Of a stretch of DNA of 64,000 bases, positions 16,057-53,320 are shown one piece after another. The notes below the pieces were generated by a model. The model saw only the letters and a program-made list of their open reading frames with translations. It was not told the DNA's origin and ran no database searches. Numbering within the stretch: the first letter of the stretch is position 1; each line of letters begins with the position of its first letter. Origin of the DNA: Hypomesus transpacificus. Its lineage: Eukaryota > Chordata > Actinopteri > Osmeriformes > Osmeridae. The DNA is taken from assembly GCF_021917145.1 (NCBI RefSeq), contig NW_025813837.1, positions 1,676,193 to 1,740,192 of the forward strand. Reading direction: 5' to 3'. A program made the translations under genes and the position numbers.

Positions 16057-19000
16057 TCTCTCTCTCTCTCTCTCTCATACACACACGCTCTTTCTCTTTC
16101 ACAATATGATTTTATTCTGTTTTATAATGGCCTGTGAAAACGTTCCCCTTCCTCCATCTCCAGCTGAAGATGGCCCAGCTGATACAGACAAGCAGACAAG
16201 AAATGTTTCATCTGCTGTGAGTACGAGCTCAAAGTGCAGAAATATTTATCTCTTGGTTTTGGAGACCACCGTTTCCTGTTGTCAATAGTTACTTGTAGTG
16301 CTCAAATGGTACCGAATGAGTCAGCTTTCTGGTGCTCCTCTGCGGTTTTGTGTTTTCACAAGTAGTTCCAATTGGCTTGCTGTGTCCTCGTTATGTAAGT
16401 CGCCCATGTTTGTTTGGAAAAAGGAGTGTTCGCCACTGTGAGAACATCTCCTCTGAACCTTTCAGGCAACCCACAATGAAGCCCAACAAACAACTCACCT
16501 ATCAAACAAGTCAAACGGCGTCAAACTGAATTCTGGAACAACCCACCAACCACCATCCTCACACAGGGAGAACACAGGTGCCATGATCAGTTTCATCGAG
16601 ATCATTTCATTATTTGCCAGATTATTTTATTTTTTGACACAAATCTGTTTTGTCGGTTTTTCAGTCCAGGCATCACCATTCGACTCAACAACCTTTATTA
16701 GCAAACAATTTACTCTAGGGAATACCCTACCCCTCACATCTCCCAGGGAGGTCAGTGGACTGATGGGACGTCACCCACGGATCCGATCAGACCATCCCGC
16801 CTTCGACCCAACCCAGCACATAGTTACTCAGATCCAGCCCCCTGTGCCTGCAGAACTCTACAAACCTCCAGACCTTCTGGCCCAGTCACTGGTGTCCAAC
16901 CACCTGCCCTGGATACCAAATCCCCAGCCTCCACTGACACCCACCCAGCATTCAGTGACCCACATTCAATCTCTCCTTCATATCAAGCCCCTGAACACAC
17001 ACCACACACCCTCGACTGCTGGCTTTCAGCTTCACATACGTGAATCAACGCAGGCCTCATTTCCTGTCAGTGGTGTTCGTCAGTCTTGGGCTTCATCTCC
17101 CAATGCTGGTTCACCAGCACAGCCTCCTGACCTCTTGAACCAGTCCCCTTCCTTGCTACCCGACCCTACACAACTATTCACTAAGTCTCTGTCTGAGGCC
17201 CCTACTCTAGACCCAGTCCTGCAGCCCTCTGTCCCTCCTCTAGACCCAGGCCTGCAGCCCTCTGTCCCTCCTCTAGACCCAGGCCTGCAGCCCTCTGTTC
17301 TGCCTCTAGACCCAGGCCTGCAGCCCTCTGTCCCTCCTCTAGACCCAGGCCTGCAGCCCTCTGTTTTGCCTCTAGACCCAGGCCTGCAGCCCTCTGTCCC
17401 TCCTCTAGACCCAGGCCTGCAGCCCTCTGTCCCTCCTCTAGACCCAGGCCTGCAGCCCTCTGTTTTGCCTCTAGACCCAGGCCTGCAGCCCTCTGTCCCT
17501 CCTCTAGACCCAGGCCTGCAGCCCTCTGTCCCTCCTCTAGACCCAGGCCTGCAGCCCTCTGTTTTGCCTCTAGACCCAGGCCTGCAGCCCTCTGTTCTGC
17601 CTCTAGACCCAGGCTTGCAGCCCTCTGTCCCTCCTCTAGACCCAGGCCTGCAGCCCTCTGTCCTGCCTCTAGACCCAGGCCTGCAGCCCTCTGTTCTGCC
17701 TCTAGTCCCAGGCCTGCAGCCCTCTGTCCTGCCTCTAGACCCAGGCCTGCAGCCCTCTGTCCTGCCTCTAGACCCAGGCCTGCAGCCCTCTGTCCCTCCT
17801 CTAGACCCAGGCCTGCAGCCCTCTGTCCCTCCTCTAGACCCAGGCCTGCAGCCCTCTGTTTTGCCTCTAGACCCAGGCCTGCAGCCCTCTGTTCTGCCTC
17901 TAGACCCAGGCTTGCAGCCCTCTGTCCCTCCTCTAGACCCAGGCCTGCAGCCCTCTGTCCCTCCTCTAGGCCCTGACCTAAAGCCCAGTGACGATAACTT
18001 GTTTTCAGCTTCTCAGAGTGTGTTTAAAGCAGCACCTACACAACCACTGGCATTTCTATCCCACTCTCAACCATCCCGAGGCAGACCTCAACCGTCCACA
18101 ACCCAGTCACAACCTCAACCACCCAAACACTATCCACAGCCACCTTTAGCCCAGTCTCAACCATCTCTAGCTCAACCCCAACGACCCCAAAACGTCACAA
18201 AACCCCCTTCACCCCAACCTCACCAACCCCAGTCCTCACGTGAGCAAACCTGGCATCCTCGTCTCCAAACCAAACCTACACATCCCCTCAACGAGGCCTC
18301 CATCCTCACCCCCTCACCACCACCACCTCTTCCCCTGACCCCAGAACCCCCTAGCCCTGACAGCCAGGTCCCCAGCAGCCCCCCAGTCACCACCATGGAC
18401 CCCCTCCGGCAGAACGCCAGCCAGTCTGCCAACCCAGCACCACCTGCAAGGTCAGCTGGGCCCAACCACTCGGAGCCCACCGAGAGGCTGAAGAGGAACA
18501 CCTCCCAGTCCACCATGAGGACCAGCGATGACCCCAGGTACACTGGTGGGTGGGGTTGGTATTGGTGGTGGATGAGGGGGGGGGTTAACAGGTTTGCACT
18601 TGCAGATGGCAAAGGGAGGAGGGGTGACTCTTTGGTTTTTATCTTTGTCACTTCCTCTTTTGGTGCAGAGCTTATCTATCTCGAAATAGAAAACAAAACT
18701 TGCAAATATTGCGTGCTATCAGTCAGATGAAGAATATGTTTTCACACCTTGGTCCATGCACACAGACAGCCAGTTTCCTCTGTTACTGGGTTAAACTGCA
18801 GTCTACTATGCGCTCAGATGAAAAGCATTTAGCATCTTAACCGCATGTGCTATGAATAATTGGTTTTTCACACCAACAAACTCTTCTGAGCTATAGAGGA
18901 GGAGGACTGTGAAAAATAGGAACAAAAAGCCCCAATGTAATTGACCCCAGGCATTTCATTTCTAAAACCAAACCTTAATTCACTGTCCCTTCGTCATCTT

Positions 19001-21848: not shown

Positions 21849-24800
21849 CTAGAGCTCAGAAGACACCCTCTCTGGAGCCGCCTTCCGCGCCTCCTTCTGC
21901 TCCTCCTTCTGCGCCTCCTCCTTCAGAGGAACACGAAAGGCCACGTATGGACACACCTTGCTGTTCAGACACACCAACCTCTCCAGCGTGGCCGAGTTGA
22001 CAATATCGAAGCCCGTCTGCCCTCCGAAGGTGCTGGGCTTCCAGTACTCTGGCGAGCAGATGGGATTCCCCAGCAGACCTTTCAGTGAAAAGGGAGCTCC
22101 CATCTCCACCATGCTCTCGCCAAAGATGGCGCGGGGGCGGGTCTTCTCCAGCATGAGGGCGGGGTAGAACTCCAGGGCGTCGATGTCGCCGTAGAGTTCC
22201 TCCAGCTCCCTGGCGATCTCTTCCTCTCCTATGGAGGAAGAAGCAGCACAGGAGACCAGAGTCGTTACCGTACGGCGCTGTGCCTTACCGCCAACTGAAC
22301 GGGAGCAGATACTGTAGATGGGAATTATTCCTAGCCAGTAGTGGGAATTTCAATTCCCTTTAGACACTTTTATTGCACCAGATCATGACTTTTCCTAGCA
22401 TTCCAGAAAACCTTTTAAGGAGGACTGGATCAACTCATAAAAAAAATAATACATCCTGGACAGACTAACGTTGTTCTATTCTTGTCAATGGTTCCAAAAT
22501 AATCACATTCTGGACATGTTTAGGATTCAGCATTCAAGTTCCACGTTTCAGTCACTCACCAGTGAACTCTGAGAAGGAGGTGTAGGGCTTCAGGTTGAAG
22601 CGTTTCCTGTACTGGTTGAAGGGTTGCAGACGCAGAGCCCTGGACTCCTCAATGACCCCCTCCGCCACCTTAGTCACCACCCGATGGATGTTCTTGCCAC
22701 CCCCTACCTGAGATAGAAAAGGAACAGTGGAAGGAGAGAGAAAAAAAAAGTAGCTTGTATTACCATCAAAAGAAGGTTCCGGTTATTACGGTTAGAGTGG
22801 GAGGGCGAAAAATATTTGTCACTTTCCAGATAAACTGGATGACATTACAAGTCTGACACTGTTTTGGCAAAGTTTGTCTCCACAAAGAATAATTGTATCC
22901 ACTGTATGTACTTCAATTCACAGGAGATTTACAGAAATGAACACATTCTCTGTAAATAAAGACTGCTAAATCTGTGAGACTCATCTTCAAAGTGGATCCA
23001 TGCTCTGAATGTTGTAGATATAAGATAGAACAGCCTCAACATCCTTCCCTACCAGCACATCCTGTGTATTAGACTTTTTTCTGCCCCTGAATGTATCTCT
23101 CTTTAAACCACACAACCCTGTTCACCCTTGCACACTTTTGTGATTTTCTGGTGCAAAATAGAAACTTCTAGCTTCTAAAAACAACTAACCAATATACACC
23201 AAATGGGGTGACCAATACCAATACCACCACAGCCACTACCAGACCCAATACCTGTCCTCCAACATTCATTGCCATTGACAGTGTATTTGCAATGTACTTA
23301 GACACTTTTATAACAAATTGACATACAAATAGTAATGCATGCATACATATATAATATTAAATGCATATGGAAAGGACAGCAGACAATCAAGGATAAGAAG
23401 TGAATGGTTCCAACTGTATTTTGGTGGTCAGAGTCAAGAAACAGTTTGTATTGACTAGCCACAGTGCAACGTAACCCCATCTAAGCTACCAGGAAAGGAT
23501 CAACATTGCCACAATACTATCTCAATGACATAGGATTACCAAAACCAGTCTACCAATATCAGAACCAGAAGGACCACATATCACTAGAACCAGTCTACCC
23601 ATGTCATCACCAGCACCAGTTTACATTTACATTACGTCATTTAGCAGATGCTCTTATCCAGAGCGACTTACAGTAAATACAGGGACATTCTCCCCGAGGC
23701 AAGTAGGGTGAAGTGCCTTGCCCAAGAACAACGTCATTTGGCATGGCCGGGAATCGAACCAACAACCTTCTGATTAATAGCCTGACTCCCTAACCGTTCA
23801 GCCACCAGTAGGCCTACCTGTCCAGCTGGCTGGCGTGAGAAGGCATCCACAAGCTTGTCCACGCCGTAATGAGTGAGGACGGATGTGTTGAAGATGAACT
23901 GGGAGTAGGGCACGTCATCTCCGCTGATGTGGAAGCTGTCGGGCATCAGGGGGTGCCAGTGGTAGAGCTGGTTGAACTCCACAGCGATGCGGTTTCTGTA
24001 CTGGAACTGGGAGCCGAAGAGAAGCGTGGGGTCGAACTTCAGCTGCAGGAGGTAGCCACTCAGGTGCTGGACGTACTCCTCGATCACGATCCGGATGGTC
24101 TCACCTGGAAGCGGATCACATGAATTATAAAAGCATGCAAGACGAAATTCAAAAAAAAAGCTGAAAAGGGAGTTTCACAACTTGCGTTTGTGTGACCCTC
24201 TAAACATGCCCATACGCAAACCCGAGAGAGTTCAGAAAAGAACGGTCAAGAACGCAAGTCCTCCCCCCTTTCTCCCCTCTCTCCCCTTTCTCCCCTTCTT
24301 CTCCCCGTCTCCCCCTCACCGATGATGACGAGCCTAGCGGTCTGGAAGAGCTGCTCGTCGTCCCAGGTGGGGTGCTCCTTCTTCAGGACGTCGCACACGC
24401 GGTTGTGCTCTCGCAACCACAGGGTGGCGTACATGGTGAGGCCGGGCAGCAGGCCAAACACCTCCTGCCCGATGGCCATGCACTCCGCCCTGGGCACGGT
24501 CGGAGGGTAGCTCATGTTCACTGGAGCCTGGTCCACCGTAGGCGGGTAGACCTCCCCGTTAATCACCTGGGGAACGGAGTCGACATGGGGAAAGGTCGGG
24601 TTTGAGGAATTGGTGAAAGAACAATAAGAATGAAGTTGGATAAACCGTTGACTGGGAAGAAGTCACACTAACCTTTGTGACTCATGGTCTTAGAAGTTAG
24701 GCCGTATATTTTCCCAGCGCGTAAAAGTCACCAATCCTCTCAACAAATTAACTTAGCAGTACCTGCTCCAACTTCCCACCATATCTTCCAAATAGGCTTC

Positions 24801-31424: not shown

Positions 31425-32638
31425 GAGAGAGACGGCGAGAAAGAGAACGAGGTGGAGGGGGGAGGGAGAGGAACGAAAGCACGAGCAAAGAAATGGAGAG
31501 AGAGAATGGAAATAGAGAATTCACATGCCGTCAACGACAATCTTTGAAGTGTGGGTCATTTAGAACAAGCAATGGATGTTGTAACCTACCCTATTTCTAA
31601 GATTCTGGTGGAAATGGCCGAACTTGGCCATCTCTTAACGGCCTCTTGCTTCGGTCTCGGAGCCCGTGTGTGCTATGGCCAACTACTGAGCTCAAATCAC
31701 TGGGGTGTAGGACTTCAAACAGACTCAGTGCACTTCTTTTCCTATTGGTGGCCTACAACAGGACATCCAACAATGCAGAATTGTTATTATTCAAACGTGT
31801 GAACGCACCAACCGTGCAACAATGGACCAGAGGATACCTCCATTCTTAATGGAATGCTCTGGATTTGATGCAATAGTTTAAGCATTCTGTTTATCTTTAA
31901 AATTGTATTTTTTTCTTGTTTTGTTTTTGTTCAAATTTTCTGTCTTCGGTGATTGCATTGGGTAGTTTGGGGAACAGCACGATGAGGTGAATTCGAAAGA
32001 TTATGTTTCACTTAGTTCCACTAGGTGGAGCAATGGTATTACAACTCTTGTTGAAACAAGTTCCCCCCTCTCAACATCCAATGTCCCTGAAAGTTCAAAA
32101 GTGAAATGTTAACCATACTTTCATCATAACCAAAAAGACAGCCCATAGTTTCATTAATTAGTTTTGTTTTTTAAACACTAAAGTAGGCCAACAGTTTTCC
32201 TGCTTTTTCAATGTTCTGAGTAACCAGGTTAAGAGAGAGAGAGACAAAGAGAGAGAGACCGATAGAGGGAAAGAGAGAGACAGGAAGAGAGAGACGGGGA
32301 AAGAGAGGAAGAGAGAGACAGAGGGAGAGAGGGAGACAGAGAGACTGCATCACTGAGGCCCTGCAGGGCTGTGTAGGACTGAGCAGGTCCAGCTGGCACC
32401 ATATGGCCTCAGTATGTCTTCCATGTCAGAAAGCACAACACTGTCAGCAAGTCTTTCCCCGACTGCAGACTTTCTGTTCCACAGCTTCACTCCGCATACG
32501 GGGCCTGTCAGGGCCCTCACCGACACTCTGAAACTAGAGACTCGAAATAGATACCAAAAATACTATAATGACTTCTGTCATGAAGTCATGGCATCATCCA
32601 GCATTTTTAGGAGTGGTGAAGTTGGGGGGTGTAAGGGG

Positions 32639-32960
32639 GAGGAGTTAGGTTGGGGGGGGGTTGTACAGGGGAGGAGTTAGGTTGGGGGGGGGGGATGTAT
32701 GGGGGAAGAGTTAGATTAGGGGGTGTACAGGGGAGGGGTTAGGTTTGGGGGTGTACAGGGGAGGAGTTAGGTTGGGGGGGTGTATGGGGAAGAAGTTAGA
32801 TTGGGGGGTGTATCGGGAGAGGTTAGGTTGGGGGGGTTGTACAGGGGAGGAGTTAGTTTGGGGGGGTGGGAGTGGTGAGATGGGGGGGGGCTGTATAGGG
32901 GAGGAGTTTGCTTGGGGGGGTGTATGGGGGAGAAGTTGGGGGTTCATGGGTTGGGTAGGT
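32639..32960. repeat. G-rich minisatellite
   Basis: Irregular units of ~30 bp with the core GGGGAGGAGTTAGGTTGGGG, separated by TGTACA or TGTATG. Runs of three or more G recur every few bases. Confidence 0.85.
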
Positions 32961-34157
32961 GTTGTGTGTGTTGGTGATGGGGGGTGGTGTGTGAAGGGGG
33001 GCTAGACGTGGGGTGGTTGTACGGAGAGTGGTTCGATGGGGGCAGATTGGGGGAGGGGTTCATTGGTTCCAACCGGGTTCTGATAATTGATATCAGATGC
33101 TCCTCAGGATCCGACCTGGGCAGGCGAGTAACCTGGAAGCATTTATTTTATGGAGAAGATGTTTAGTTAAGCAATGCTCCTGCTCTTAATGAGTCTGGGT
33201 CCAGGCCTGGTGATGGATACCACTGGTGAAAGCACTGAAGTCTCGTTCCTTCCTCCTTCCTCTCAGTGGATCAGATTACAGATTAGCAGACTTCCTGTCC
33301 AGTTGGAGAACGGGCCGATCCAACTGATGGTTTTGGGTGGGCAGAAGACTTGGGGTGGGATGTATGCGTGTGTGTGTGTGTTGGAGGGGGGGGGGGGGGT
33401 GGTCATCATGTATTACCTCAGATGGGTTTTTGGATAGAGGCATAGAGTACTGGAGGTCCTGTGAGAGGCCCTCGGTGTGTCGTTTGCTAAAGCTGTGAGA
33501 TGAAACAGCTGATTCTCAGTGAGGCCAACTGCTTCCTTCTCCAGACCAGATACATCCATCTCCATCACCTTCTTCCTCGCTGGAGGTCATGAAGAGGAAG
33601 TTCTCAAGAGATTGGTGGTCTACCAAATTAAAACAAGTCTGCCCCTACTAATGAGTGGCTTCGTGCTCATTCCTAAAGAATGTTTTTTTTATGCTGTAAT
33701 CATATACCTCATACTTGAATGTTCATTAGCATAATTTCATTACATACAGCGTTGTATCGCTTCAATCAAATGTAGGAACATCAAGGGGAATTGCTTGGCT
33801 TCCAAATGGTGATAGCCAGGAGCACATTTATACGTGTGTTATCTAGTGATAGAGACTGTATCACACCTCATGATTTAATTCCCCGTAGCGGTAACTGACC
33901 AGTGAAATAACATAAGGACAAAATAACTTGGATTGTTCTCTTGAACACAGATTCTTGTATCACCTTTCACACTCCCTATGGCTAGAATCCGACTGCTGAC
34001 TGAAATATCTCAGAGGTCTGTCAATGATTCCTACCCTCCTTTTTCTTGCCCCCCCCCCCTCAAAGATCATTGGATGAAAACATCCCCGGCTCCTCCCCTG
34101 GGACCTTCCCATCCAATACATTTTGAGGAGGAGGTAGTAAAGCACTTTGGAGCCTCA

Positions 34158-34257
34158 NNNNNNNNNNNNNNNNNNNNNNNNNNNNNNNNNNNNNNNNNNN
34201 NNNNNNNNNNNNNNNNNNNNNNNNNNNNNNNNNNNNNNNNNNNNNNNNNNNNNNNNN
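34158..34257. other. Assembly gap (100 N)
   Basis: Exactly 100 N, the usual placeholder for a gap of unknown size. The flanks share GCCTCA on both sides, so the true join could be an overlap rather than missing sequence. Confidence 0.98.
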
Positions 34258-34834
34258 GCCTCACCTCTTCCCTGACACCGTCCAGAGCTGTTGAGATCAA
34301 CAACCAGGCAGGATATTGTAGTCGGCGTAAAATTCAACACAAGATGGCTGCTCCGGCAGTAATCTCTGTTTCGAGCCTATTTGACCTGACAGTTTACAAC
34401 ACTTGAACTTCACATGCCTTGTTGAAGGGGGCAAAAGCAGTACTGGGGTGTGTTTGGGGGCAGGCTACACACTTCCTGGGGAGGCGTCCTTGATTAGGAG
34501 CGTGCTTCACCTCTAATTGCTGTGGTCACTGTAGGTGAGTGCAAGTGGTCGGAAGGAAACAATTTTCCTCCTGGAGCTAGTTACCTGATTGGGTAAGTAA
34601 GTGACCTTGACCTGACCCCACTCCATTCAGAATTTAAGATGAGTTAGATCATGGTCAGTGATAGGGTTTTAGTATAGTGTGCAGTACTTATATATTGCAG
34701 GGTTATAACGTTCCATAGTTATGTATTTGTTACTTCAACATGCGGCTTGATATTACTTATACTAATTCTGTGATATGGTGATTCCGTTTTTTTCAATTAT
34801 CTTTTTACTCCTCAAAGTTGTTTAGGGGGTGGAC

Positions 34835-34985
34835 CAGTGCCTTACTGCTTACATATGTAGGCTAAGGCCTTACCTCACAAGTCTGGTTTGAATCCACCCT
34901 GGCCAATTTCCTGCATGTCTTTCCCTCTCTCTATCTTACATTCCTTTCACTCTTTACTATCTATCCCCCAGTAAAACAGAAATGC
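34835..34985 (+). mobile_element. tRNA-derived SINE (same family as 5190-5345)
   Basis: It reads GCTAAGGCCTTACCTCACAA, then GGTTTGAATCC (B box), then ATTTCCTGCATGTCTTTCC and a pyrimidine-rich body. Confidence 0.6.
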
Positions 34986-36101
34986 CCTTACACAAAAAAA
35001 CTTCAAATGACAATTATAATGATATAACATGGACATGAATGTGCCGTGATACGAGTGGATCTGGTGTTGTTATGGTATTATTCATCACTCACATATCCAA
35101 ACTGCTGGACTCATTCATAAACGGGGGTGCCCCACAGTGGCTACACACCTGCCCTTGACCCTGGCTGCGCGTGGATAATTCATCACAATGTTTACAGAAT
35201 GCCCTTCACAGCTTGTATATTTTCATCCTGCAGAGGGAAAAAAAGAAAAACACCTCCACCTCTTCTCGCTGCTCGGCCAAACGTATCGCCTGCCTCCGAG
35301 CTGTAAATAAGAAGGCGTACTGTAATCCACTTGATACATTTCAGGCGAAATAAAGTCATCAGCTGAAAGCAATTTACTGTCTGTGTTCGAGCCAGAGGCT
35401 CGCGATTTCTCTGTTGTCATCATCATAGGCCGCAAGGCCAGCCAAGTACACACACACCCTTCAAATTGCTGTCGTATGCTGGCGCGAGTGCTGAAAACCC
35501 AGCCATTTTTCCTTGTCTGTACTTCAAATAAACTTTTATTTTGTTTATGATGATGGGGGAGTTTTTTTGTCAACCAGCAATGCAGCTATCGTGCGGGAGG
35601 TATGTCTCATTTACTTTGTTGGTTGAGAGCCGTAGAAGTCCAATCCACGTTTAGTGACTGTATATTCATCCTCCACGGTGGAGGCTTCCCATTGGCTAAC
35701 AAAAACAACAAATCCTCCATTTGGTTATGGACAAATGTTGAGTCCGTTTGAGTTGTAAACAAATCAAATCAAGTGTGATTTCCATAGGCCTGCAGTAGAT
35801 CACATTTGTCTTCACAGATGCCCATAGCTGTCATCACGTGAAATCCAATCTAAACCCTCAAAGCAGACAAGGAAAAATGCACGTAAATGATTATTTAGTG
35901 TGTAACAGTGTTATCAAAGGTCCTTTAACACATACACATGGAAAACATGTGGAAGGTCTTTTATGCTGAAGGAAACGCATCACATACCGGGCAACTTAGA
36001 GGTCAACTACTTCTGTTCACACAGCCTCCCTTCCACTGTCGTGTTCGTCAGTGTGTAGTCGAGTATGGACCTAGTCGTCAATCAAAGGATATACTGTCAT
36101 T

Positions 36102-36244
36102 GGCCGGGTTTCCAGATTCGTTAAGAAGCTCTTAACGCTAACAGCGTCTTAAGAACGTTCCAAGGACGCTCTCCAACGCTCTTAGAACTTTCTTAAGAAG
36201 ATTTTAGCGTTAAGAGCTTCTTAACAAATCTGGGAAACCCGGCC
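36102..36244. mobile_element. Palindromic MITE
   Basis: Nearly the whole element is an inverted repeat. The left arm GGCCGGGTTTCCAGATTCGT continues TTAAGAAGCTCTTAACGC, and the right arm mirrors it, ending AAATCTGGGAAACCCGGCC. Flanking ATT on both sides could be a 3 bp target-site duplication. No coding. Confidence 0.8.
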
Positions 36245-36523
36245 ATTTTCTGAGCCCCTTGTCTAGCCAATATTTTTTTTTGTGAAGTATAAATGATGCT
36301 GCTCATTACCCGCCCCGCCCCCATCCACAAGCCATCACATAGAAGCCATTTTATCAGTCAGGTCTGACCCAAGATCACAGAGGCGCTGGTGCTACAAGAT
36401 AAGGCTCCACTGCTGGGCTTGGGGCTTCAATGCGCCCCTTCCCTCTCCAAACATTTTCTTCAGCGAACATGCCAAGCGGAGGTTATGTCATATTGTCACT
36501 TGGCTGTGTGCTGCATGCAGGGC

Positions 36524-37165
36524 AGGGCAGGGCAGGGCAGGGCAGGGCAGGGCCGGGGCCAGGCTGGGCAGGGCAGGGCAGGGCAGGGCAGGGGCAGGGC
36601 AGGCAGGGCAGGGCAGGGCCAGGCCGGGCAGGGCAGGGCAGGGGCAGGGAGGGCAGGGCCGGGCAGGGCAGGGCAGGGCAGGGGCAGGGCCGGGCAGGGC
36701 CGGGCCGGGCTGGGCAGGGCCAGGGGCTGGGCAGGGCAGGGCAGGGCAGGGCAGGCCGGGCAGGGCAGGGCAGGGCAGGGCAGGGCCGGGGCAGGGCAGG
36801 CAGGGCTGGGCAGGGCAGGGCCAGGCTGGGCAGGGGGCAGGGCAGGGCAGGGCCAGGGCCGGGCAGGGCAGGGCAGGGCAGGGCAGGGCAGGGCAGGGCC
36901 GGGGCCAGGCCGGGCAGCAGGCAGGGCAGGGCAGGGCAGGGCCGGGCAGGGCAGGGCAGGGCAGGGCAGGGCAGGGCCGGGCAGGGCCGGGCCGGGCTGG
37001 GCAGGGCAGGGCAGGGCAGGGCAGGGGCAGGGCAGGGCGAGGCAGGGCCGGGCAGGGCAGGGCAGGGCCAGGCAGGGGCAGGGCAGGGCGGGCCAGGCTG
37101 GGCTGGCAGGGCAGGGCAGGGCGGGCAGGGCAGGGCCGGGCAGGGCAGGGCGGGGCAGGCTGGGC
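36524..37165. repeat. (GGGCA)n array of ~640 bp
   Basis: Pentamer GGGCA with GGGCC and GGGGCA variants in near-perfect tandem. Hundreds of residues are open in several frames on both strands, which is an artefact of the missing stop codons. G3 runs every two bases make the plus strand strongly G-quadruplex-prone. It lies ~1.6 kb upstream of the first lhx6 coding exon. Confidence 0.95.
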
Positions 37166-38782
37166 CGTGGAGGTGTCAAGCTCTCACACACCCCAGGGTG
37201 CTGCTGTGAGGTTCACTGAAATCGTGTGGAGTATCAAAACTAGAGAGAGATATTCCTGTCTCAAGTTTTGATACGACACAGTGCACACTATTACGTTCAG
37301 AGTGATCTACCACGAAGCTGAGAAATCTACCTTAACTTACAGAAACAGCTGAAAGGAGAACCTATAGACAGCTGTAACCAGTCATAATGACAGGAAGGTT
37401 GACTATTCATTTGTGTTAATAGGCTGATTGGACATTGTTATTATTATTATTATGAATAAGTATATGTGCAGTGCGGATGAATGGAGGACTGTGAGAACGG
37501 GAAGAGGATATCATATCCTGGATATGATTTCCCACCAATGCAGCTGATAGTCGCAGACGCGTCTTGCCTGTCACTACAAGGGATGTAGTCCATTAGTTTT
37601 CCTGGTTCAGACAAGCTTTACGATCAACATGTTGTTCGCTCTTGTTGTTATTCAAAAGCAACAATGGCTCCCCTTCTTAACGCTGATGATAATTTCCTTT
37701 TAGTAAACACATTCTGTAAAAAGCGCCCTCGAACAACCTTCCCTTACCTTACGAGCTATTGAGGAACGGATGACACGGCGTAATTACCGTTGACACGCTG
37801 ACCTCCCGACCGTCCGTTGGGGGTGTTTAAGCCGCGGTGATAAGTTAAGCATATGTTACGTTTTGTTTTTATTCAGGTGGGGGACTCGTGGTTCATTGTT
37901 TGCCTGGAACCCCGGCAGCTGGTGCTAAAGGAAGGGGGTGGGGGTGGGGCAGGACAGAGATATCAGACCAGCAGCAGTCCACCTTCAGTTCCTACATTCA
38001 CTGTTCCGGATGCTGCAGGTGACACAACCCGGTCTTTGACCTCGCATTGTGTGTGCTGTGTTAGAGAATTGTGTTCACTGATCAATACTGGAATGTAGGC
38101 CTACTGGGATTTCAGTACGTGGTGCAGGGACAAACTGCACCACGGAAAAACAAACAATGTAACAGCATTTGATCACAGTTTTGTTATATTTTTATAACCC
38201 AGCCTTTAACTTACTCACGCAGACAAAACACACTTTTAACTAGTGTTACGACACATAAACTGTAAATGATACAAAGAAAAGTAAAATGATCAATTTCAAT
38301 AACAATACACTTTTAACTACATATTTTGTTTATATTTATTAATGCTTCATATTATTTGATAATGCTATTTTTTTTAATTAATTTACCATATTAGTGGAGG
38401 TAATTGTTTTCTCATCAGAGTGAATGGGGAGTAGCCTAACTTCCATTTTGGAGGAGAGGCGGAGGAAAAAGCCAAAAAGATAAGTGGAGCCCCATAGCTC
38501 TGCTTTCCTGAATGAACACGGGTAGCTTATTTCTTAAAAGGATACAGGTCGCCTTTGCTTCTAATTTGTTTTTTACTGGGAGAAGTTAACAACAGGACAG
38601 ATACACAACGAAATTAGCTTTCTCCACAGAGTATAAACTGAAAGATTAAATCTTAATGTTGACCTGATTTATAATAAATTCGGAGGGCGTTTCGGTTGTT
38701 CATTTGAATGCCGGATTTTCCCCTATTGAAGAATAAAGCCTGTAGGCTGGTAGGCCTATATTTGGATGTTTCCTCTTTTCTC
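37166..38782 (+). other. lhx6 upstream region
   Basis: No coding exon can be supported. The last ~350 bp before the MYWK start is plausibly promoter and 5' UTR of lhx6. The sequence is otherwise AT-rich with no recognised repeat. Confidence 0.35.
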
Positions 38783-41700
38783 ATGTACTGGAAAAATGAA
38801 TCTCAATCCTCACTTCCAAAAGAGAGAAAATGTGTTATTGGACAATGATTTCGTTAAGGTAATGAAACGATTTGGGGGTCATTAAGCCTCAACTTCAATG
38901 TGATAATTTTTTAGTCTGATGAATTTGTATCTGCATTTTTGTTTCCAATGTTTATGTTTAGTGACAATCACGAACATTTTTTACATTGGTGCTAATTTTT
39001 TGAAACGAAGGACAACATGGATTCTGAATTCCACCCTGAAGCACATTTTTTGGCAGTGGGGTGAATAGTGCCGTAATCACCCGGGGGACTCTCAAGTATT
39101 TAACGAGCCTAACATGACCGACACAATCACCGTCCTTTATGTTTCAAGATCAGCTGCAACTTCTGTACATTATCTCGTATGAATAGTGCGATCTACAATT
39201 GAACCACTTCACATCCTATGGCTGTTTAGAGAGATTCGATTTTCGATTACGGCTATTAAAATTATAATATGTAATTCTGCTGGTGTCCCGGTGCCTTCTC
39301 GTGAGTGACAGCTGAAATTGACACTCTTACTGCCTCTTGTCGCGAGCATTTCAAGCAAACACTAATTGCAGGTGGTCTATCTTTTTCAGGGCTTTTCGAT
39401 TGCATGGGGAAGATGAGGTAGGCTGTTGCGCGCAAGGAAAAAAATCAATCATTTAAGTTTAATTGCCTCATCAAATTTTGCCTTTGTGGCCAGCTTTTAA
39501 ATGCGTTATTTAATGTTTTTGGACCGGATGTGGCTGGCAGTGTGGGTTAGGGATGCGTAATGCGTGGAAGAGGGCGAGTAGTCCTATCTTTTAGGCTCCA
39601 TCTTTCGCACCGACACCCCAGTGTCCGAGGCTTGATAATGGTGAGTCAAAACTACAAGGTCTTCCTTTTCCTGGTATAATGCTTCCGATTCTTAGATTGT
39701 GTCGAAAAGGGCGTTAATCGAACTGCTTTCCCCCAAGGACACCCAATGCTGTCCTCTGAGCTGTGTCGACTGTTTGGGCGTTGAGTTTCGTAGTTTTGTC
39801 ACTTTAAATCAATTACATTTTGGATCGTGTCATGTTATTGTCAACTCACTGTAATATCTGATGTGCGTAGACACATTTCATATGGTGGGTAATAGACTAT
39901 ATAAAATTTGGCAAGTGTGAGAAGTTATTGTATCGTATAAAGGTAAGTTATGCAAGTTATATTAAACATTGGAAGAAGCCTATTTCAACCCAAAAAATCT
40001 GATTGTAAAGTGTTGTTGTTCATAACAGTCTCACTCAGTAGAGGAGTCCCAATCGGAGGTGAAGAAGGAGGCAAACCTGTGCAGTCCTTCCCTGACGCCG
40101 TGTGTGTGTTCTTCGCCGCTGCCCTCCTCCGTCAGCAGTCCGCTCCTTGGGGAAGAATCAGTGCGCGAGCTGCGGGACGGAGATCCAGGACAGATATCTG
40201 CTCAAGGTGACCAGAACCATTTTAGGCCGAAATCACATAATTCAGTGTTGTCCCCACATATGCCTGCCTGGTATCTGATGATCTTGGATTACAATCAATT
40301 TAACAGTCCTGGATGATGTTTCGCCGCCTGCATCACCTGATAGTAGTTTTTTTGACATAATTATCAAAAAACGAAATAAATCATTTTGAAAGTTTTCTAA
40401 AATGATGACTATAATATGTGCATGTTTTTACAATGTAATAACTTTGCATTATATTGATCACCTTGCAGGTGAATAATCAGAATTGGCACGTGGGATGTCT
40501 GGAGTGTTCAGTCTGCAGAGAATCTTTACGTCAGCACAATAGCTGCTACATAAAAAACAAAGAAATCTATTGTAAATTGGATTATTTCAGGTAGGGTAAA
40601 TTCTGCAACCTGTGTAAATTAAAGTGAAAGCCTTTATGTGCATGTAGGCTACGAAATTATTTTTGTCATCTCGTGACGCAAAATATAACTAGGCCTGAAA
40701 GGAAAATGTAAAATATTGGATAGCCTACACTCTATAGCCAAGAAAAGTGTTTGCCGTTTAAAACGCCAAAATGCGTTTTGGCGCTTGGCATACTTGGCAT
40801 ACTTAGTTTATCAATATATATGTGATATAGAAATAACACTTATTATTTTTAAACTATCTATTAAATTAAATTGTCTACCCGTTAATCATTTGTCTTTCTG
40901 GTCACCTTTCAAGTTTCTCTTGGTCGTAGACAATAATGTCGTGACAATTAACAAATGTTTTTTTAAATGGTTAGTTTATTCCTCTGAATATCTGCGATTT
41001 ACAAAACATCTCTTCCTGAAATTTATTATTATTTAATGATCTTATTTTTCACAGTATTTTCTAACTTCTTCAGATTATATTATATTATTGCTATTACTAA
41101 ACGATATTGCCGTCACACATTCATACAAAAAAAATATTTTGAACTTAAATGAGCCTATATTTGACAGCGTTCAATCTGTCTCACAGTCGGTTCGGCACCA
41201 ATGTGCCCAGTGTGGCCGTCAGATCTATGCCAGTGATTGGGTGAGGCGAGCGCGGTGGCAGTGTGTACCACCTGGCGTGCTTTGCTTGCCTACTCCTGCA
41301 AGCGGCCAGTTGTCTACCCGGAGAGGAGTTTGGTCTTGGTGGAAGGCAGGGTTCTCTGTCGAGGACACTATGATACCATGGTGGACAACCTGCGTAGAGC
41401 TGCAGAAAATGGTTAGTAACAGCTTCAAGACCATACCAGACATTCAAGTTGCAGGCATAGCCTGTGTTAATTATGTATTTATTTTCGCCACAATTTGAAA
41501 ACAATACTAAACTGGCGCGGCCTAGTCTCAGTGTAAGAAAATAAACATAAATGCGTTGAGTGTGGTTGGTAAATGATTGTTCCTGTAACCCGTAGGGACA
41601 GGGCTGACTCTGGAGGGAGCCCTGCCTTCTGACCAGGACAGTCAACCCAGGCCCAGCAAAGAGGGCACGGACATCCTTCACTGCAGAGCAACTTCAGGTA

Positions 41701-42997
41701 TAGCCAGTAGCATGTTGTGCCTACAGTGTGTGTGTGTGTGTGTGTTTCTCTAAGAGGGAAAAAACAGTGATGGCTGACTTAAGTGTTCTGGTGTGTTCTC
41801 CTAGGTAATGCAGTCCCAGTTTAACCAAGACAACAACCCAGATGCCCCAGACCCTACAAAAGCTTGCAGACATGACGGGACTGAGCCGACGGGGTCATAC
41901 AGGTCAGGGAAACATTGCACACTGATATATGGTATAGGCAACAGGACATAATTCCATGTAGTACAATATGTTGTACATGATAATTTAATATATAGGCCTA
42001 TCTATATGATTCTATGAACATGTATGATTTTTTTTGTAAAAATTATAGAACATTTATTTGAATATGTAAACCCACAATCATTTTTATACATGTTTACTAG
42101 CAAGCCACCTTATACAATCAGTATTTCTTCTTTATTTGGTTTGTAGAAATGTAGCATTTTCTGTGATTATGTAGTTGCTTCATTTGCATGTGATTTGCAT
42201 CCACTTCACAATTACAGATTGCACACAGCCATATCAGGTTCCAACCCACAAAATAATGAGAATTTATCAACATCAAATCCTAAAAAATCTCAAGCCTTGG
42301 AAAAGAAAAGAAAAAACTACTTTGCATACTCCCCCTTACAAATAAATAAACTAAATGATTTCTTCAGCAATTGATAATGAAAAATAAATCATAGGCTATA
42401 TTTTCCATTTTTTATCAGGTTTGGTTTCAGAACTGTAGAGCAAGACACAAAAAGCACCCTCCGCAACCCAGCACTCTGTCCCAGGGTGTCCCCCACTCCC
42501 GTATGCCGTCCTCCCTGCCAGAAGACTTCCACTACTCCTCCTTCAGTAGCCCTGACCACCCCCCACCTGATGGGTCTGCATGGATACCTGGACAGTGAGT
42601 CAGCGGCTTCTCAGCCTGTCCCTGGGAGAGATTGTATTTGAGAGAATTGTCTAGTCTGTTTTCTTAGTATCAATCACCGTGGAACTGTGCTCTCCTAGTC
42701 CTTGACTATCTGCTGCACTTATTATCCACACTTTCGTATATCGCCGTGGATGAAAAGCATCTGCTAAATTAATGAATGTAAATGTTGATGCCAACCATGA
42801 GGGCTTGATTTCCTACTGATTAATATGTTCGACTGCTGAATCTGTTATGTTTTGTTTTTGGCTTGTCAAGTGCATCTTCTTGAGTAGATCTCTTTTGTGT
42901 TTGTGTCTGTATGCAGGCCATCCCTTCTCTGTGCTGGCAGGCTCGAACCATCTCAACCACCCCCACCATGGGCTTGACTCAGCTGCCGCTACGCTGA
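38783..42997 (+). CDS. lhx6: LIM/homeobox protein Lhx6, reading frame broken by 13 single-base indels
   Basis: LIM-homeodomain transcription factor; in vertebrates it specifies forebrain interneurons and craniofacial mesenchyme. Coding exons: 38783-38858 (MYWK start), 40029-40206, 40469-40590, 41187-41411, 41596-41697, 41805-41902, 42419-42594 and 42917-42997. Homology is unmistakable: [15 protein letters not shown] and [17 protein letters not shown] (LIM), ADMTGLSRR and [13 protein letters not shown] (homeodomain), C-terminal HPFSVL and TQLPLR. Yet only the third exon is in frame throughout. Extra bases lie at 38840-41, 40147-48, 41256, 41289-90, 41306-07, 41317-19, 41338-39, 41652-54, 41845-48, 41891-94, 42559-64 and 42960-64, with one base missing near 41200. 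Exon lengths minus these indels give the expected phases at every junction and a 348-residue protein, close to human LHX6. Splice sites are all intact. It is either an assembly error cluster or a very recent pseudogene. Confidence 0.9.
39590..39640 (+). promoter_or_regulatory. lhx6: Alternative lhx6 first exon ending in an ATG at the splice donor
   Basis: The sequence CTTGATAATG|GTGAGT places an ATG (39638-39640) exactly at a strong donor. Spliced to the exon at 40029 it would give [16 protein letters not shown], resembling the shorter mammalian LHX6 isoform that begins MAQ. The 5' end of the exon is not determined. Confidence 0.5.
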
Positions 42998-43580
42998 ACC
43001 CTGCCCAGCACAGCCTGGCTATACAGATCCCCAATCCCTGTTCAGTTTTCCTCATGTGAGCTCACAGCAGGACGGTCCCCTCCTGCCTCTTCACAGGATT
43101 ACAGTGTGTTTTTTTACGCCATCTAATTCAGTTTGGAATTCTGCTTTTCGAGGAGATGTATGTTTTTCTCTCTCCTCTTGGAAAATCCTCCTGGAAGATC
43201 AGACATTAGCAAGGACGAAAGGACGTGACGTGAAATTCCCACCCCAAAATGTTGTCCTGGATAACTTTTTTTTCTTGCCCTTTTCCATCAAGTCACACTA
43301 TTAAACCACTTTTTTCTTTTTTTTTTCAATCCTGAGGTTTTAAATGTGTAAGAAATCCCCAAATGCATGACTTGTGTGTTTCTCTGGGCCGAAGATATGT
43401 CTGACCCCGGAGGACTGTGTTTTGTGTTAATGTTGTTTTGAAGTTGTTTAATAGAATGTTACGGTATTTATTTTGACTTTACAGAGAAGCACTTTAGTAA
43501 ATGTCCTTATATGCTGACTGCTAAAGTCATTTATTGTATATTGTAAATACTGTACGAATTTAATAAAATGTGCCTGTAAG
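42998..43580 (+). other. lhx6: lhx6 3' UTR
   Basis: AT-rich sequence with poly-T patches ends in AATAAA at 43562-43567, followed by a TGTGCCTGTAAGTGTTGTGT GT-rich element. A canonical poly(A) site is supported. Confidence 0.65.
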
Positions 43581-52986
<9,406 letters not shown>

Positions 52987-53320
52987 AGGAAGAGCCTGCC
53001 TTCATCATCCTCATCCTCATCATCACCATCAGCATGTCAAGCGTCTATGGAATCGTGGCCTTCCACGTGTGATACTGGAGTTGAAGGCTCACCCATGTGG
53101 GCGTCAGTAGTTTTTTTTTTTACAGGGTGACCTCTATAACAGTGACTGGAAATGCAGAATCTATCAACTGTTAAAAAATTAAGGAATACATAAAAATGTG
53201 TAGTCCCATGTATTGACTGTGTCAACACTGTGTAGACCTAAGAATGTGTCGTCACATGTAGTCTTCTGTAGATTATCTGAATGTCCATGGTAGTGAGGGA
53301 GAAAATAAATACTTTTTAGA
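52987..53320 (+). other. Keratin gene 3' UTR
   Basis: Ends with AATAAA at about 53304-53309, about 320 bp after the stop, followed by T-rich sequence. A short (CAT)n patch is at 53005-53035. Confidence 0.6.

Follow-up and report, generated by a model that had tools for sequence, protein, structure and literature searches.

A LIM-homeodomain gene of the lhx6 type is interrupted in this assembly by 13 one-base frame breaks (12 insertions and one deletion), and these breaks very probably, at roughly 0.94 on our estimate, reflect an assembly artefact due to base-calling or consensus errors rather than a real feature of the locus. The odds rest mainly on the size and polarity of the indels, on the conserved residues and on the clean neighbouring genes. 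The analysed window is a stretch of 64,000 nucleotides (C169:1676193-1740192) from a genome of 437 Mb in 376 contigs, which from its genes would be that of a fish. The gene lies to the right of the N gap and has eight coding exons between 38783 and 42997, which total 1058 bp; all seven of its introns have GT-AG borders. The exon coordinates and lengths given in the initial annotation were reproduced for all eight exons (Table 1). The lhx6 genes belong to the Lhx6/Lhx8 group of LIM-homeodomain genes.

Table 1. Features of the lhx6 locus and of the sequence around the gap, with positions in the window.
Feature	Position	Strand	Remarks
100-N assembly gap	34158..34257		presumed left edge of suspect tract; only gap in the window
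Palindromic MITE copy	36098..36251	.	1-base deletion in CCC run near 36112
lhx6 coding exon 1	38783..38858	+	76 bp; 1 inferred insertion
lhx6 coding exon 2	40029..40206	+	178 bp; 1 insertion near 40142-40152
lhx6 coding exon 3 (LIM)	40469..40590	+	122 bp; intact; Pfam PF00412, E 1.1e-11
lhx6 coding exon 4 (second LIM)	41187..41411	+	225 bp; 5 insertions and 1 deletion
lhx6 coding exon 5 (homeodomain start)	41596..41697	+	102 bp; 1 insertion
lhx6 coding exon 6 (homeodomain)	41805..41902	+	98 bp; 2 insertions
lhx6 coding exon 7 (homeodomain end)	42419..42594	+	176 bp; 1 insertion, C6 run
Old SINE-like repeat, last lhx6 intron	42682..42790	+	extra base near 42750
lhx6 coding exon 8	42917..42997	+	81 bp; 1 insertion, C5 run; terminus QLPLR-stop
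Element conserved with C23:225021-225157	45186..45325	+	window copy longer by one base at three sites, shorter at none

The presence of the frame breaks is confirmed. When exons 2-8 of the window were aligned, with frameshifts tolerated, to the peptides of the lhx6 ohnolog on contig C23, 242 of 318 residues were identical and 12 breaks (11 insertions and the deletion) were found in six of the seven exons, exon 3 being unbroken. Once these shifts are allowed for, the sole stop in exons 2-8 is the terminal one. The break in exon 1 is deduced from its length of 76, from the TGA and TAA codons in its frame and from the phase 0 that exon 2 needs. The 13 breaks and the seven broken exons out of eight that the initial annotation had listed are therefore recovered, 12 breaks in six exons by alignment and the one in exon 1 by phase and stops. 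The unshifted frame of exon 8 is open to 43058, and the exon was also considered as intact; this reading was rejected, as the shifted frame ends in QLPLR-stop and the C23 gene in QLPLSR-stop. Together with the 25 residues that follow the split codon in the window and in C23 alike, this ending supports the break that had been placed there.

To locate the extra bases, all possible removals of one base were scored around the 11 aligned insertions. In 10 cases, the best-scoring removals included a base belonging to a run of 2-6. The claim that the indels lie near homopolymers held, but not the exception attached to it: the T at 41256 had been described as standing outside any run, and removal of a G from the preceding GG scores equally, so that this insertion is not exceptional. 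The exception is instead the insertion in exon 2, whose best removal is 40142 or 40143, outside any run and in a poorly conserved stretch.

The underlying gene would be an ordinary teleost lhx6 ohnolog, most likely intact. Like teleost lhx6, the window gene encodes two LIM domains plus a homeodomain, which are distributed over exons 2-8, and its junction phases in these exons are the same as those of the C23 ohnolog; it differs from teleost lhx6 by the 13 interruptions of its reading frame in the assembly. On C23 the exons are open, and exons 2-8 of that gene have no frame break. The window and C23 agree in the order of the conserved elements, of lhx6 and of a keratin gene, and the LIM-LIM-homeodomain gene of the window lies in the segment shared with the C23 lhx6 locus. 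At a larger scale, 33112-53022 of the window and C23:164387-236885 look ohnologous. A search of solved structures with exon 3 returned LIM relatives, with lhx6 not among them. The initial annotation had also suggested looking for a second lhx6 locus. The genome was searched with 38700-43100 of the window, and the best 40 of 141 candidates that were scored comprised the locus itself, the C23 ohnolog (70-83% identity), an lhx8-like gene on contig C26 and short repeat matches; an intact ohnolog is thus present, and no second near-identical copy was found among these 40.

Genes outside the suspect tract behave differently from lhx6. The zbtb26 gene is a single open frame of 440 codons (1323 bp); keratin, located 5 kb downstream of lhx6, has open exons that align to the C23 keratin over 1044 bp. 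Set against the 13 breaks in 1058 bp of lhx6, there is no net break in these 2367 bp (Fisher P 2.2e-7), for which the lhx6 rate predicts about 29. One keratin alignment to C23 contains a compensating pair of gaps and another a gap at an intron edge, the open frames being unbroken; the keratin match at 52868-53022, with gaps at and after the stop codon, and simple-repeat matches were left out of the counts. About eight exon segments of ptgs1, identified by eye, are open, and only one of them reached Pfam An_peroxidase, at a score below the curated cut-off. The statement that these neighbours are unbroken was accordingly upheld, as no net break for keratin and zbtb26 and as open segments for ptgs1. 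A UnaL2 LINE 3' element lies within the ptgs1 region (23631-23684, minus strand). Across the genome, 150 of 433 homeodomain candidates were scored and one of these 150 had an internal stop, as did 14 of 133 LIM matches, so that stops in lists of this kind are not rare; these lists give only a rough background, since at least one of the LIM stops (C26:3347311) comes from a match that runs into an intron. The second LIM of the window gene (exon 4) was absent from the genome LIM list, and its C23 and C26 equivalents were present.

A different reading is that the breaks are real and that the window copy became a pseudogene very recently, this species having lost one of its lhx6 ohnologs through a burst of one-base insertions, with the C23 copy alone left. 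As lhx6 has roles in the forebrain and the jaw, the C23 copy alone would then serve them. We consider such a loss improbable, and it keeps a small share of the odds because the intact C23 ohnolog would make it tolerable. The window copy has also changed more than its ohnolog. Exons 3-6 and the first part of exon 7 contain 150 residues that are identical in C23 lhx6 and C26 lhx8, and of these the window gene keeps 138; of the 143 residues common to the window and C26, the C23 gene keeps 138. The changed shared sites are thus 12/150 vs 5/143. These 138 retained residues and the seven GT-AG introns are in line with the earlier description of conserved LIM and homeodomain residues and splice sites.

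If neutral decay brought eight substitutions per indel, about 31 of the 150 sites would be expected to have changed and only 12 have (P 2e-5), and five nonsense codons would be expected; at four substitutions per indel, however, 12 changed sites are compatible with neutral decay (P 0.17). Among the signs of a unitary pseudogene other than frameshifts, no premature stop or nonsense substitution was seen in exons 2-8 with shifts allowed, and no splice loss in the seven introns. Nor do the indels in lhx6 show the mixed sizes and the frequent deletions of such a pseudogene. That all 13 are one base long has P 1.2e-4 if half of natural indels are of this size, and 12 insertions out of 13 have P 0.0017 if insertions make up half of natural indels and 5e-6 if they make up 30%; a set of this kind, with no longer indel, is unlikely to come from neutral decay. 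For comparison, a survey of mammals gives deletion-to-insertion ratios of 0.85-12.82, below 1 in the opossum only, and one-base events as 29-71% of insertions (PMC2671719).

Still less probable is that the assembly contains a faulty duplicate or a low-quality haplotype of lhx6, a good copy being placed elsewhere. The VGP paper reports such a mechanism in the assembly of a bird (PMC8081667). Here, however, the next best match to the locus is the C23 ohnolog at only 70-83% identity, within the best 40 of 141 candidates of a search to which an alternate haplotype filed separately would be invisible. We give hardly any credence to real indels that frameshifting or message editing would make tolerable: the conserved residues would fit this, and nothing else does, the ohnolog having no break in exons 2-8 and the keratin neighbour none net. 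Moreover, we know of no process by which a vertebrate gene could cope with 13 shifts.

We favor errors of the assembly, whose source would be low-coverage or unpolished long-read sequence. In lhx6 the one-base indels are dense, mostly in or beside runs and without matching substitutions, and breaks are absent from zbtb26, keratin and the recognised ptgs1 segments outside the tract. The initial annotation had proposed an unpolished long-read patch to the right of the gap; one-base insertions, their association with runs, retained residues and splice sites and the clean keratin gene strongly support this proposal without proving it. From these observations we infer a technical cause, the limits of the tract and an indel-free true sequence. 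With about one indel for every 80 coding bases, the stretch falls far short of the Q30-35 that PMC8081667 gives for assemblies not yet polished, and it would have to be nearly raw sequence. The same paper, in its account of TLK1 in the assembly of Anna's hummingbird, reports frameshifts where one copy stayed unpolished (PMC8081667). As in that account, short indels within one stretch break a conserved gene in our window; unlike in the TLK1 case as described there, a scaffold gap adjoins the stretch and no alternate copy turned up among the 40 candidates scored in the assembly.

The error tract would start at or near the 100-N gap. Its right end would lie between 43.0 kb and 48.2 kb, where the keratin exons are clean. 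If the deletion in the MITE copy is an error, the suspect sequence covers at least 36.1-43.0 kb, and it may reach the gap on the left and go past 45.3 kb on the right. Its length would correspond to one or a few long reads. In an alignment of 30 MITE copies, which are the best-scoring ones, the window copy is the only gapped row and the 29 others have no gap; among 10 further copies that were listed and unaligned, two have lengths that imply a loss. The element, of about 150 bp, has at least 39 further close copies across the genome at 90-95% identity (best 40 of 1145 candidates). The extra base of the SINE-like repeat is absent from the four copies that could be aligned out of six tried, copies that also differ from each other by gaps.

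The non-coding evidence is mixed: the MITE deletion and the extra SINE base would fit an excess of indels in the tract, but conserved non-coding elements do not cleanly separate the two sides of the gap. Against C23, three elements to its right have five one-base excesses and two one-base losses, and one element to its left (33112-33298) has 3 and 4 gaps. Just left of the N gap there is a G-rich tandem array with units of 28/57 bp (32621-32937) and about 10% indels, and the end of the left contig, too, may be poor in quality. To the right, a GCAGG array of 643 bp (36517-37159) has about 6% indels according to TRF, with G runs of 1-5. This array looks noisy, but in other arrays of the window indels amount to 0% for the 33- and 48-bp units and to 0-10% for other short units, also outside the tract. 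The repeat search within the window returned no pair of copies that reached into 34-48 kb.

An annotation that trusted the assembly as it stands would lack a conserved developmental regulator or would contain an lhx6 pseudogene, and flagging the breaks averts a false claim of gene loss. The sequence that starts at the gap and ends at some point between 43.0 and 48.2 kb should be regarded as unfit for indel or microsatellite analysis. Moreover, an ohnolog and repeat copies in the same genome are practical gauges of error when reads are not at hand. Elsewhere in the window, an open frame of 757 residues (16457-18730) is made up largely of a 33-bp repeat, present in about 23 copies, that encodes LDPGLQPSVPP-like units, and other frames are open there too.
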